Assembly: GCA_945868725.1 (NCBI GenBank)
Contig: CAMBMU010000008.1
Span: forward strand, 1-55,101
From: Spirosoma fluviale
GTDB lineage: Bacteria; Bacteroidota; Bacteroidia; Cytophagales; Cyclobacteriaceae
DNA length: 55,101 nucleotides
Direction: 5' to 3'
Position 1 is the first letter of the stretch; every line of letters starts with the position of its first letter. The translations under genes were made by a program, and so were the position numbers. Below the pieces are notes generated by a model. It searched no databases. It was not told the origin of the DNA and saw only the letters and a program-made list of their open reading frames with translations. Below are positions 4,400 to 49,404 of this stretch, piece after piece.

Positions 4400-4483
4400 G
4401 GTTCCAAATTTAGATCAATTCTTGTCATTCCTCGCAATTACCGGTTCAGCTTGCCCAATTAGGAAAGTAAAACCAAAATATTC

Positions 4484-4889
4484 TGATTATCCGCTTTTTC
4501 ACCACTAACCAAAGAAAATTAGGTTTGAAGTTCAATTCAATGAGCTGTGGATTGAGGTCTATCGTGCGTTGGCCTTTTTCTCACGCAGATCTAACCAGAA
4601 AAAACCCGCTGATTTTTTTCAGATTGAATAGGTTGGTGATCTAACAAGTAGATGTTTGAAGTTCAATTCAATAAGCCGTGGACCGTGGTCTGTTGACAGT
4701 CGACCGTCTACGGTCCACAGCCCATTGAATCGAACTTCAAGCCTTATTATCTTTAGTTAGCACTAAAGCAATTTTATTCAGTAACCACCCACTTTATCCC
4801 TAAAACCAACTGGCTGTCGACCGTGGACTGTTAGCCGTTGACAAATTTAAATAGGCATGTTGAGCCACTGGCATCATTGCGGATAATCA
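4484..4889 (+). repeat. Interspersed MITE-like element, copy 1 (long/composite, about 406 bp)
   Basis: Starts TGATTATCCGC (4484-4494) and ends GCGGATAATCA (4879-4889), exact inverted repeats; flanked by AAAATATT at 4475-4482 and 4893-4900; no ORF; shares arms with copies at 4902, 9489 and 32390. Confidence 0.8.
4656..4740. repeat. Large imperfect inverted repeat (31-nt arms, 23-nt loop) nested in element copy 1
   Basis: Left arm 4656-4686 TTGAAGTTCAATTCAATAAGCCGTGGACCGT; reverse complement of right arm 4710-4740 is TTGAAGTTCGATTCAATGGGCTGTGGACCGT (27/31 identical). Confidence 0.9.
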
Positions 4890-4901
4890 AATAAAATATT
4901 C

Positions 4902-5038
4902 TGATTATCTGCTTTTTCACCACTAACGGGAGAAAAAAAGGTTTGAGGTTCAATAAGATGAGCTGTCGACCGTGGACTGTTAGCCGTTGACAAATTTAAA
5001 TAGGCATGTTGAGCCACTGGCATCATTGCGGATAATCA
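4902..5038 (+). repeat. Interspersed MITE-like element, copy 2 (137 bp), tandem with copy 1
   Basis: Starts TGATTATCTGC, ends GCGGATAATCA (5028-5038); followed by AAAATATT (5042-5049); 88-bp perfect direct repeat with copy 1 (4813-4900 = 4962-5049). Confidence 0.85.
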
Positions 5039-5105
5039 AATAAAATATTTACGCCTTGCTGGAGGATTCTTTGTGGCAAGGGCATGAAATTTCTAACGCT
5101 AACTG

Positions 5106-8516: not shown

Positions 8517-9479
8517 ATGAACATTCTGATCACGGGAGTAACTGGGCTATTTGGCAGTGAGTTGGCACGAGAATTCAGCGCGCTGGGAAGTATTCATGGC
8601 TTGAGGCGTGCGAGCTCTGATCTCGGAGCGGTGGATCTTGAAGGACTGGATATCCACTGGCATGAAGGGGACGTATTGGATTTTAATGCGGTATTGGAAG
8701 CCGTGGAGGAGATGGATGTGGTGATTCATGCTGCAGGAAAAGTTTCCTTTTTGCCCAAAGACGAGCGGGCACTTTTTCAAGTAAATCATCAAGGTACGAT
8801 CAATGTGGTGAATGCGCTCCTAGCAGCAGGTGTTCCCAAGTTGGTATACATCAGTTCAGTAGCCGCCTTGGGGCAGGTTCCTGACCAAGAAGACTACGAT
8901 GAAAAATCTGTATGGGTAGATGCCCCAGGCCATACTCCCTACGCCTTGTCTAAATACATGGCAGAGTTGGAAGTTTGGCGCGGAGAGCAAGAGGGCTTGG
9001 AGGTTTTGGTCCTCAACCCCTCCGTGATTTTGGGCAAGGTTGCCTACGAGCGAAGTAGTGGGGGCTTGTATCAGGTGGTAGTGAAAGGAGCTGCTTTCTT
9101 CCCTGCTGGCAATCTCAATTACATTGATGTACGGGATGCTGCGGAGATTACGCGTGCCTTGGTTGAAAAAAATGCTTGGGGAGAACGATTTGTGTTGTCC
9201 AAGGAGAGTATGTCCTATGAAGTGTTTTTTCAGCAGGCCGCCCAGATTCTGGGAGGAACTCCACCAAAAAATAGGCTACCCGACTGGGTTATTTCTTGGG
9301 GATTCCCAATGCTGAAGGGGATGTCTTGGCTGCTTGGGAAGAAGCTGCCTCTGACGGCTCAAGTGGCTAAAAATGCGCAGCGCAAAACCCAGTTCAGCAA
9401 TCAAAAGGTGCAGCGCTACCTTAACTTTCACTACCGCGAATTGCAGGATACCTTGGAATGGGCAAAAACAGGCCGATAA
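8517..9479 (+). CDS. NAD-dependent epimerase/dehydratase family protein
   Basis: 320-aa ORF; MNILITGVTGLFGSELAREF Rossmann motif, VYISSVAALG, YALSKYMAE. Confidence 0.92.
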   Translation: MNILITGVTGLFGSELAREFSALGSIHGLRRASSDLGAVDLEGLDIHWHEGDVLDFNAVLEAVEEMDVVIHAAGKVSFLPKDERALFQVNHQGTINVVNALLAAGVPKLVYISSVAALGQVPDQEDYDEKSVWVDAPGHTPYALSKYMAELEVWRGEQEGLEVLVLNPSVILGKVAYERSSGGLYQVVVKGAAFFPAGNLNYIDVRDAAEITRALVEKNAWGERFVLSKESMSYEVFFQQAAQILGGTPPKNRLPDWVISWGFPMLKGMSWLLGKKLPLTAQVAKNAQRKTQFSNQKVQRYLNFHYRELQDTLEWAKTGR

Positions 9480-9488
9480 AACTTATAC

Positions 9489-9634
9489 TGATAATCCACT
9501 TTTTCAACACTAACCAGAGAAAAAAAGGTTTGAGGTTCAATAAGGTGAGCTGTGGACCGTTGACTGTCGTCTGTCAACGATTATCCGCAGTTTTAAATAG
9601 GCGAGCTGAGCTACTGGCATGATTGCGGATAATC
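9489..9634 (+). repeat. Interspersed MITE-like element, copy 3 (146 bp)
   Basis: Starts TGATAATCCAC, ends GCGGATAATCA (9624-9634); near-flanking 11-bp direct repeat ATAAAACTTAT at 9476-9486 and 9635-9645; arms shared with other copies (CACTAACC(A/G)GAGAAAAAAAGGTTTGAGGTTCAATAAG.TGAGCTGT). Confidence 0.88.
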
Positions 9635-9783
9635 ATAAAACTTATTTTCTATCTCCAGCGTTGAGGAGCATAAGGGTTTAAAAAAAATTCATCTACAGAT
9701 GATTTTAAAATCACAAAAAAATCACATTTGAATTTTCAAAAAACCAAAAATTTGGTAACTTAAATGAATCTTAGCACTACCGA

Positions 9784-32389: not shown

Positions 32390-32504
32390 TGATTATTCGC
32401 GTTAGCACCAATAATAACCAAAGAAAAAAAGATTTGAAGTTCAAGAAAATGAGCTGTGGACGGTGGTCCGTAAGCCGTGGACGATTTGACCATGCGGATA
32501 ATCC
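32390..32504 (+). repeat. Interspersed MITE-like element, copy 4 (about 115 bp)
   Basis: Starts TGATTATTCGC, ends GCGGATAATCC; arms AACCAAAGAAAAAAAGATTTGAAGTTCAAG.AAATGAGCTGTGGAC match other copies; imperfect flanking repeat CTTATTTTTT (32379-32388) / CTTACTTTTT (32504-32513). Confidence 0.75.
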
Positions 32505-47336: not shown

Positions 47337-48263
47337 ATGAAAAATTATAAATCCCTTGTTCTCATTTTTGCCCTAATCGTTGGGTTAGGCACCCTTTCTT
47401 CTTGTAAAAAAACTAAAGTAACAGAGAAGGATGCCATCGAATTTACCTACATCGAAGAAGGCAAGGAGAAGCCTGCCAATGGTGAATTTCTATTGTATAA
47501 TTTAGAGATTTTGACCCAGGCTGACTCGGTAATCTACAGTACCTTGACCCAGCCATTTCCAGGCTATTTAATGGCAAATGACACCATTAAGGCTCAGAAT
47601 GGCATGGACGAAATCTTTTTGGCGCTTAGAAAAGGAGACTCAATCACCTTTCAGGCTGCAGCCAAAATTATTTTCAGTGGCAACCAACCTGCTCCAATTA
47701 AAGAGGATGACCTAATTAAAGTGCGATTGGGTGCGTATGATGTAAAGACGGAAGCAGACATGCAGGCTTTTTATGAAGAGGCAATGCAAAAAGAACAAGA
47801 AAAGTCAGCGGAACGCGCCAAGACTCTTTTGGTAGAAGAAGCAAAAACCATCGAAGCCTATATTTCAAAGAATAATTTGAAGGCTCAAAAAACAGAAAGT
47901 GGACTTTACTATGTGATTGAAAAGGAAGGAACTGGCGAAGCCACCACTCAAGGAACTACCTTGTATGTGAACTATGCGGGTTACCTAATTAACGGTACCT
48001 TATTCGATACTTCATGGCCAGAGATTGCAAAAGCCAATAACATGTTTAGCGAGGAGCGCCCTTACGAGCCTCTTCCAGTAAATGTAGGAATGCGTCAAGT
48101 AATCGATGGATGGGACGAGGGCTTGATGCTTTTGAAAAAAGGCTCCAAAGCAAAATTAATTATTCCTTCTCCACTTGGTTATGGAGAAAGTGGAGCTGGA
48201 GCAATGATCCCGGCCAACTCTATCCTCGTGTTTGACGTAGAAGTAACCGACGCTAAGAAATAA
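47337..48263 (+). CDS. FKBP-type peptidylprolyl isomerase lipoprotein (two-domain)
   Basis: Lipobox TLSSCKK; C-terminal FKBP domain (LYVNYAGYLINGTLFDTSWP...QVIDGWDEGLMLLKKGSKAKLIIPSPLGYG). ORF extends to 47316 (TTG), ATG at 47337 preferred. Confidence 0.92.
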   Translation: MKNYKSLVLIFALIVGLGTLSSCKKTKVTEKDAIEFTYIEEGKEKPANGEFLLYNLEILTQADSVIYSTLTQPFPGYLMANDTIKAQNGMDEIFLALRKGDSITFQAAAKIIFSGNQPAPIKEDDLIKVRLGAYDVKTEADMQAFYEEAMQKEQEKSAERAKTLLVEEAKTIEAYISKNNLKAQKTESGLYYVIEKEGTGEATTQGTTLYVNYAGYLINGTLFDTSWPEIAKANNMFSEERPYEPLPVNVGMRQVIDGWDEGLMLLKKGSKAKLIIPSPLGYGESGAGAMIPANSILVFDVEVTDAKK

Positions 48264-48295
48264 GGCGTACCCCTTATATAAAAGACTCAGAACCT

Positions 48296-48856
48296 ATGAA
48301 ATCCAGACTATTTTCCGCATTGGCTTTGTTTATCGGAGCGCTTTCTTTGCTTTCTTGTGTGGATTCTGATCAAACTCAAGAAGTCATCATTCAGCGGGAT
48401 AAGGAAGCCATCGAAAAGTTTCTTAAAGAGAATCCCATTTCGAGTGTGAAGGAATACAGTGAACCGATTGAAGGATTCTATATGTTCTGGGAAGTTTCAG
48501 CCAAACCTGAGCGAAATAGCATCTTGCGAGGAGATACAGTCACGGTCAACTATACTGGTAAGACTCTTTCCAAAAAAATATTTGACACTTCTATCGAGCA
48601 GATTGCAAAAGATAACGGCATTTTCAATGCTGGAAGAAAGTACCAGCCCCTTCGCTATGCAGTAGGATATGGATATACCATAAGTGGATTTGAATTTGCG
48701 ATTTCTATGATGCACGCTGGCGAAAAGGCAACGGTAATTTTTCCTTCTCGTCTTGGGTATGGAACTCAGGCAAGTGGAGGCATTCCGGCAAACTCTCCCC
48801 TGATTTTTGAACTTGATCTTGTACAGATCAAAAAAGGCCCGAATCTAAATCCATGA
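48296..48856 (+). CDS. FKBP-type peptidylprolyl isomerase lipoprotein
   Basis: 186-aa ORF; lipobox LLSCVD; VTVNYTGKTLSKKIFDTS...ATVIFPSRLGYGTQ. Confidence 0.9.
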   Translation: MKSRLFSALALFIGALSLLSCVDSDQTQEVIIQRDKEAIEKFLKENPISSVKEYSEPIEGFYMFWEVSAKPERNSILRGDTVTVNYTGKTLSKKIFDTSIEQIAKDNGIFNAGRKYQPLRYAVGYGYTISGFEFAISMMHAGEKATVIFPSRLGYGTQASGGIPANSPLIFELDLVQIKKGPNLNP

Positions 48857-49404
48857 TGCGTAATCTTTTAGTACTCTTCCTTTTTGCCCTAGTTGGCCTC
48901 AGTGCTTGTGAGACCACCAATCCATACAATCAGGGGCCAGCATATGATTTTGAAGGCAATCTTGCCACGGACCGCAAAAAAATTGCTGCCTACCTAGATA
49001 CTGCTAAAATTGATAGCATCTACCGCATCCATGATCCTAGTGGGGTAGTGGTGATTGTGCAGCAGGAAGGCAAGGGTTCTCGCCCAACTAATAATACCGT
49101 AGTTTATACGGATTACATTGGAAAGGTAATGGCAACTGGAACGGTGTTTGACACCTCCTATGAGGCTGTAGCTCGGGTCAAAAACACATTTGTGGAGGGT
49201 AGAGTCTATTCCCCACTTAGTTTTGTGGTAGGATCTGCCACCGTAATTACAGGTTGGGATATTGCATTCAAACGACTCCGGCCTACCTCAAAGGCGACAA
49301 TCATTATTCCTTCGCCATATGGCTATAGCAGTCAGAAAAACAACGACAAAATCCCAGAGAATTCGATCTTGATTTTCCAAGTAGATTTCTTAGGAATCGA
49401 TTGA
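48853..49404 (+). CDS. FKBP-type peptidylprolyl isomerase lipoprotein
   Basis: 183-aa ORF; lipobox LSACET; VVYTDYIGKVMATGTVFDTS...VITGWDIAFKRLRPTSKATIIIPSPYGYS; overlaps previous gene. Confidence 0.9.
   Translation: MMRNLLVLFLFALVGLSACETTNPYNQGPAYDFEGNLATDRKKIAAYLDTAKIDSIYRIHDPSGVVVIVQQEGKGSRPTNNTVVYTDYIGKVMATGTVFDTSYEAVARVKNTFVEGRVYSPLSFVVGSATVITGWDIAFKRLRPTSKATIIIPSPYGYSSQKNNDKIPENSILIFQVDFLGID

Follow-up and report, generated by a model that had tools for sequence, protein, structure and literature searches.

Heptad arrays of a fixed tetramer and a free triplet in interspersed elements of a Cyclobacteriaceae genome

The window, the whole 55,101-nucleotide stretch of DNA analysed here (contig CAMBMU010000008.1), carries four repeat copies whose cores are composed of words such as GTGGAC, GTTGAC, GTCGAC and GTCCAC, raising the question of how these cores vary and what maintains their pattern. 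The initial annotation described a spaced hexamer array, shuffled word by word between conserved flanks while self-complementarity is kept. All core strings that it quoted are present and exact. Copies 3 and 4 fall beyond the range assigned to the cores (4684–4992). The core of copy 1 spans 4678–4720, one identical core occurs twice (4814–4842 and 4963–4991), and the cores of copies 3 and 4 lie at 9550–9579 and 32454–32483, respectively.

Heptad arrays in the window and the genome

Exactly one base separates successive hexamers in the cores, which makes the true repeat unit a heptad. In the register YGTNNNC, each heptad is composed of a fixed CYGT tetramer and a free triplet, usually in four consecutive repeats. 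Core self-match reaches 0.69 (lag 7) and 0.66 (lag 14), compared with 0.12–0.28 at lags 4–6 and 8–13; the counts at lags 7, 14 and 21 are 192, 131 and 73, against at most 13 at every other lag up to 25. Across the whole genome, the three-word pattern GTNGACNGTNGACNGTNGAC, allowing up to one mismatch, gives 113 + 109 = 222 matches versus 1 + 1 = 2 for the reversed control. The lag-7 self-match and these pattern counts bear out the spaced word array first proposed. Four-heptad arrays number 168 in 229 kb of DNA, taken from stretches chosen for holding arrays or MITE copies; a single mononucleotide shuffle of these stretches contains none. Copies from this genome were drawn from targeted stretches, short of a full inventory; each species is represented by a single genome, in several cases an incomplete MAG, and tandem clusters are non-independent. 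The tandem 7-bp period is well above chance, and the arrays are not uniform repeats of one 7-mer, since three of the seven positions vary freely.

The arrays and the elements carrying them are positioned in the window as follows.

4483–4891, forward strand: MITE copy 1, composite, with the left end CTGATTATCCGC at 4483, the right end GCGGATAATC at 4879–4888 and nested heptad-ended units inside
4656–4740, unstranded: palindrome formed by the head-to-head fusion of two A-class ends, with arms 4656–4697 and 4699–4740 that are 81% complementary and a core of six heptads
4677–4704, forward strand: heptad array CGTGGAC CGTGGTC TGTTGAC AGTCGAC
4692–4719, reverse strand: heptad array TGTGGAC CGTAGAC GGTCGAC TGTCAAC, overlapping the array at 4677–4704
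4692–4842, unstranded: heptad-ended interspersed unit of 151 bp, from an A-class end to a B/D-class end, resembling L010:1039-1188 and L014:900-1045
4815–4842, forward strand: heptad array TGTCGAC CGTGGAC TGTTAGC CGTTGAC, within an 88-nt exact repeat shared with 4962–5049
4892–4900, forward strand: left copy of the target duplication TAAAATATT, doubling as the junction of two tandem MITE copies
4901–5040, forward strand: MITE copy 2, CTGATTATCTGC...GCGGATAATC plus 3 bp, with one orthologous MITE with an identical 28-bp core in G311
4964–4991, forward strand: heptad array TGTCGAC CGTGGAC TGTTAGC CGTTGAC, within MITE copy 2
5041–5049, forward strand: right copy of the target duplication TAAAATATT
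9479–9487, forward strand: left copy of the target duplication AAACTTATA, with the empty site reading ...AAACTTATT... in G310 and G311 and AAACTTATG in G303
9488–9637, forward strand: complete MITE (copy 3 of the initial annotation), missing at the orthologous site in G310, G311 and G303
9551–9578, forward strand: heptad array TGTGGAC CGTTGAC TGTCGTC TGTCAAC
9638–9646, forward strand: right copy of the target duplication AAACTTATT
32391–32503, forward strand: short, degenerate MITE relative of 113 bp (copy 4 of the initial annotation)
32455–32482, forward strand: heptad array TGTGGAC GGTGGTC CGTAAGC CGTGGAC

Elsewhere in the window, positions 48143–49326 hold three 40-nt direct repeats, spaced by ~570 bp within coding sequence and 73–75% alike to the reference copy, which probably represent repeated protein domains.

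The MITE and the heptad-ended units

The MITE is a short, non-coding element of ~145 bp (mostly 135–180 bp) with terminal inverted repeats (GATTATCCGC...GCGGATAATC), present in ~40 copies in the genome; 41 copies were analysed. A single heptad array is positioned between TTGARGTTCA... and an internal GATTATCCGC. The 9-bp target duplication matches at seven or more of nine positions in 28 of the 41 copies, with a mean of 7.0 matches versus 4.26 ± 0.20 on shuffling. The CTGA start and the 9-bp duplication are reminiscent of IS10/IS50-type elements. The MITE at 9488–9637 is absent from three relatives (G310, G311 and G303), each of which retains an uninterrupted site with a single target copy. 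At the locus of copies 1 and 2, the window holds two tandem MITE copies, the first with nested units; G311 has one plain MITE with the identical 28-bp core beside an adjacent gene of 91% identity, and G305, G301 and G306 have the same position without a MITE. A whole-MITE search of the genome (82% complete) returned, among the matches listed, only sequences of MITE size or shorter. In its length, its ends (CTGATTATCCGC/GCGGATAATC), its 9-bp target duplication and its empty sites in relatives, the element is like other MITEs; unlike them, it holds a heptad array and a third GATTATCCGC copy internally. Recent MITE activity is thereby on record for Algoriphagus-like bacteria. Its core lengths are 42, 49, 60, 67 and 85 bp, in steps of one heptad or 18 bp with one 60-bp exception. 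In genome G315 (L178, L181–L184), a MITE-like relative has a core of this kind with GATTAGCCGC after it, and its two forms differ by an 18-bp insert, as in the genome studied here.

Outside the MITE, outward-facing array pairs bound non-coding units of 88–248 bp (39 units). ORFs of at least 80 aa contain none of the 83 array clusters. The non-MITE units favour gene 3' ends, with 43 flanks 3'-facing versus 20 5'-facing, as counted on ORFs called automatically by a simple script; 15 of the 43 sit no more than 20 bp from the end of the ORF. Where a non-MITE cluster is close to a gene 3' end, its outermost array is directed toward that gene in 23 of 27 instances. One 127-bp subclass has two different ends, aligns across 19 copies at a mean column identity of 82%, and builds tandem clusters with a period of ~135 bp. 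No target duplication was found at the heptad-ended units in the 14 clusters searched (best z, 1.3), and no Rfam covariance model matched the window above its gathering score. Between the ends of some longer units lies a strong terminator-like inverted repeat (AAAAAGAGGCTGTCCCGAAA...GGGACAGCCTCTTTTT-like), adjoining gene 3' ends, as seen in L017 (about 870–910), L015 (about 1655–1690) and L007 (about 970–1000).

Variation, pairing and constraint of the cores

The cores fall into classes defined by the preceding sequence, each class with its own cores. Class C reads GTGGTC-GTCGAC-GTCAAC, followed mostly by GTTGAC or GTGGAC, with words 1–3 kept in 17–18 of 19 copies. The contrast between conserved flanks and differing cores holds within one class, the MITE, but the accompanying claim of rearranged word order does not: the four copies seem shuffled because cores of different classes were set side by side. 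Within each class, divergence is essentially by point mutation from one ancestral core, the outcome that the initial annotation had opposed to shuffling, plus heptad indels.

Whole-word shuffling through template switching or recombination among cores is accordingly largely refuted, and we regard it as highly improbable. It would account for the word order that differs between classes, for the insert hairpins of long MITE copies, which resemble quasi-palindrome corrections, and for the nested composite of MITE copy 1, which is missing from the G311 site. Inside classes, however, homology runs column by column. Among arrays with similar prefixes, 58 of 74 single-word differences (from array pairs that are not independent) involve one nucleotide, versus 40% expected under random word replacement, and no permuted words were seen at the orthologous loci inspected. 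These loci, with flanks about 82–91% identical, differ by substitutions and by exact 7-bp lengths (L006/L216, L013/L244 and L218/L234). Replication slippage, also put forward at the outset, is supported by this gain and loss of whole heptads between orthologues and by the 42-bp and 49-bp core lengths of the MITE. A wider caution follows, in that paralogous repeats differing word by word can mimic shuffling.

Conserved self-complementarity, the other half of the original description, fails in the units and the cores, with the 18-bp insert as the exception, and this bears on two further explanations. In one, the cores would be kept self-complementary because they act as folded single-stranded DNA or RNA, in the manner of a REP or attC-like site, a terminator or an mRNA stabiliser. 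The units are indeed inverted-repeat shaped, extragenic and often placed shortly after stop codons, and none of 200 shuffles folds as well as the window MITE. Long MITE copies carry an 18-bp insert that folds into a stem of 5 bp capped by a CGTG loop, in which both sides have changed in three of five pairs; the six distinct sequences of this insert are 96.7% paired versus 85.8% when shuffled, a covariation that could reflect either selection on the hairpin or quasi-palindrome template switching. Against this explanation, arms belonging to one unit pair less well with each other than do arms taken from different units (19.87 versus 20.63 ± 0.26 matches, 39 units), junction arms pair at 19.88 versus 20.76 ± 0.39 for shuffled partners, and pairing between words within cores is at chance (101 dyads versus 92 ± 5.5). 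The 19-copy alignment of the 127-bp element revealed no covariation (term, −0.13), and the fold z-scores of five 125–127 bp copies spread from +0.2 to −2.9. The low arm pairing is likely accounted for by the units being heterodimers of two classes. We consider the folded element improbable.

The other explanation, a REPIN/BIME family mobilised by a RAYT (Y1 transposase), appears more improbable still. The units share with REP/BIME/REPIN sequences (PMC3733652; PMC3116915) their short length, extragenic location, inverted pairing with two different ends, frequent placement past stop codons near gene 3' ends, and tandem clustering; REP-type repeats are described as preferential extragenic heterodimers (PMC3733652), and Y1_Tnp genes occur in most congeners. 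REP-type ends, however, are compact tagged hairpins, whereas the ends here are heptad lattices, lacking RAYT association and selection on arm complementarity; the units likewise lack a conserved, covarying hairpin, with the covariation term negative and arm pairing under that of shuffled partners. None of the three Y1_Tnp genes in the genome has an array nearby, and among the scanned Y1 neighbourhoods of relatives (L149–L177 and most of L178–L197) one has arrays, which belong to a MITE-like element. RAYT linkage was therefore rejected, the one case being this MITE-like copy beside a G315 Y1 gene with an internal stop.

In 25 non-redundant MITE copies, picked by prefix and terminal motif and hence independently of the array, conservation is 0.983 at the fixed G/T/C positions, 0.783 in the free triplet, 0.780 in the spacers and 0.800 in the flanks (fixed versus flank, p = 3e-6). 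The 127-bp element gives 0.99 versus 0.78, values inflated by picking copies through the array pattern. In eight long arrays chosen from other heptad families, change is concentrated away from a run of roughly four positions (ACTG, CAGT, ACTT/TACT), with p between <0.0005 and 0.018 relative to placing the same changes at random; in two of the eight (L261 and L262), the clearly free positions number two instead of three.

With fixed positions far better conserved than free ones, a protein-binding array, also among the options first listed, is a live one. We assign a probability of roughly 0.48 to the reading that the cores are arrays of about four heptads, forming the outward ends of units and also lying inside the MITE, that constitute a periodic recognition lattice, putatively protein-bound, and change by mutation and by heptad gain and loss. 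The 7-bp lattice would be kept by recognition of the tetramer at every seventh base, with a putative DNA- or RNA-binding protein as the most likely recogniser, and the free triplets would drift. Slippage and unequal exchange would alter the number of heptads and copy units into tandem clusters; candidate roles are unit mobility, or 3'-end or structural effects beside genes. Several points weigh against a recognition lattice: a few orthologue pairs, compared by eye, do show changes at fixed positions, so that constraint is not absolute; biased mutation or conversion sparing the tetramer would look alike; two of the eight other arrays lack a clean three-position free block; and the heptad-ended units lack a target duplication.

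An account in terms of ordinary simple repeats, made by slippage as tandem 7-mers and decaying without function, some of them captured and copied in the MITE, is possible if doubtful. Heptanucleotides are reported as an over-represented and abundant class of simple repeat in bacteria, for which slippage has been proposed (PMC4679880, PMC4692102). Another genus contains near-perfect (TGTGGAC)n (L249), and orthologues differ by one-heptad indels. Passive decay, however, predicts equal change at all seven positions, and the change sits in about three; the fixed positions of the MITE are far better conserved than its flanks, and class C cores are stable. The recognition lattice and slippage junk are made experimentally distinguishable by a 4 + 3 pattern with measurable constraint, which also offers one possible reason for a period of seven.

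Known heptanucleotide repeats and distribution of the heptad families

Bacterial heptanucleotide repeats have been noted before, without an agreed function. Direct repeats of TAACTGA occur in Beggiatoaceae, Cyanobacteria and some Bacteroidetes (PMC4679880), GGGAATC repeats occur in Xanthomonas (PMC4692102), and three tandem heptanucleotides are cited for Calothrix in the latter paper. The arrays described here are like these in their 7-bp unit, mostly intergenic location, direct orientation and presence in some Bacteroidetes, and TAACTGA read as a circle is ACTG plus three. Unlike the published repeats, described as a single fixed or nearly fixed 7-mer, they combine a tetramer with a free triplet and form the ends or inserts of interspersed elements. 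A literature search by core strings and for Cyclobacteriaceae MITEs, with most subscription papers outside its reach, returned no description of these sequences.

The pattern is present in 23 of 24 congeneric genomes and, in a phylum sample, in 16 of 299 genomes (12 of 141 genera). Most named public records in which a B-class core occurs exactly are Algoriphagus, Cyclobacteriaceae, Cytophagales and 'Spirosoma fluviale' MAGs; the cultured Algoriphagus sp. A40 carries the pattern. The window probably derives from an Algoriphagus-like bacterium. Heptads of the form AAGTANN occur in most congeners and ACTGCNN heptads in some; the latter are most frequent in G324, outside the family. That fixed-tetramer, free-triplet heptads (CYGT, ACTG/CAGT, ACTT/TACT) form a general intergenic class in bacteria, at least in Bacteroidota, is a tentative extension that we hold to be rather unlikely; a putative recognition system would then read one tetramer per seven bases and ignore the triplet, and small dispersed elements would use or mobilise such arrays.

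In G324 (L252, G324:C3), which belongs to another family of the same order, the 634 ACTGC-heptad matches include a long array of alternating CAGTCGG and CAGTCCG. The Y1 (IS200/RAYT-like) transposase genes common to most congeners are not associated with arrays (L094, L095). Exact core matches also occur on MAG contigs labelled Uhrbacteria and Deltaproteobacteria (L124 and L143).

Integron-like cassettes were suggested by the same-direction intergenic arrays of G315 and were rejected, as GTTGACN does not fit the attC R-box, GTTRRRY. In L097 (G315:C52) and L100 (G322:C6), such same-direction arrays, mixed with ACTGCNN and AAGTANN heptads, lie between genes for AAA_14/DUF4143 ATPases, an ABC-2 transporter, a RecG-C-like protein and a DegT aminotransferase, possibly a polysaccharide or accessory region. 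The G322 genome has 47 forward versus 7 reverse matches.
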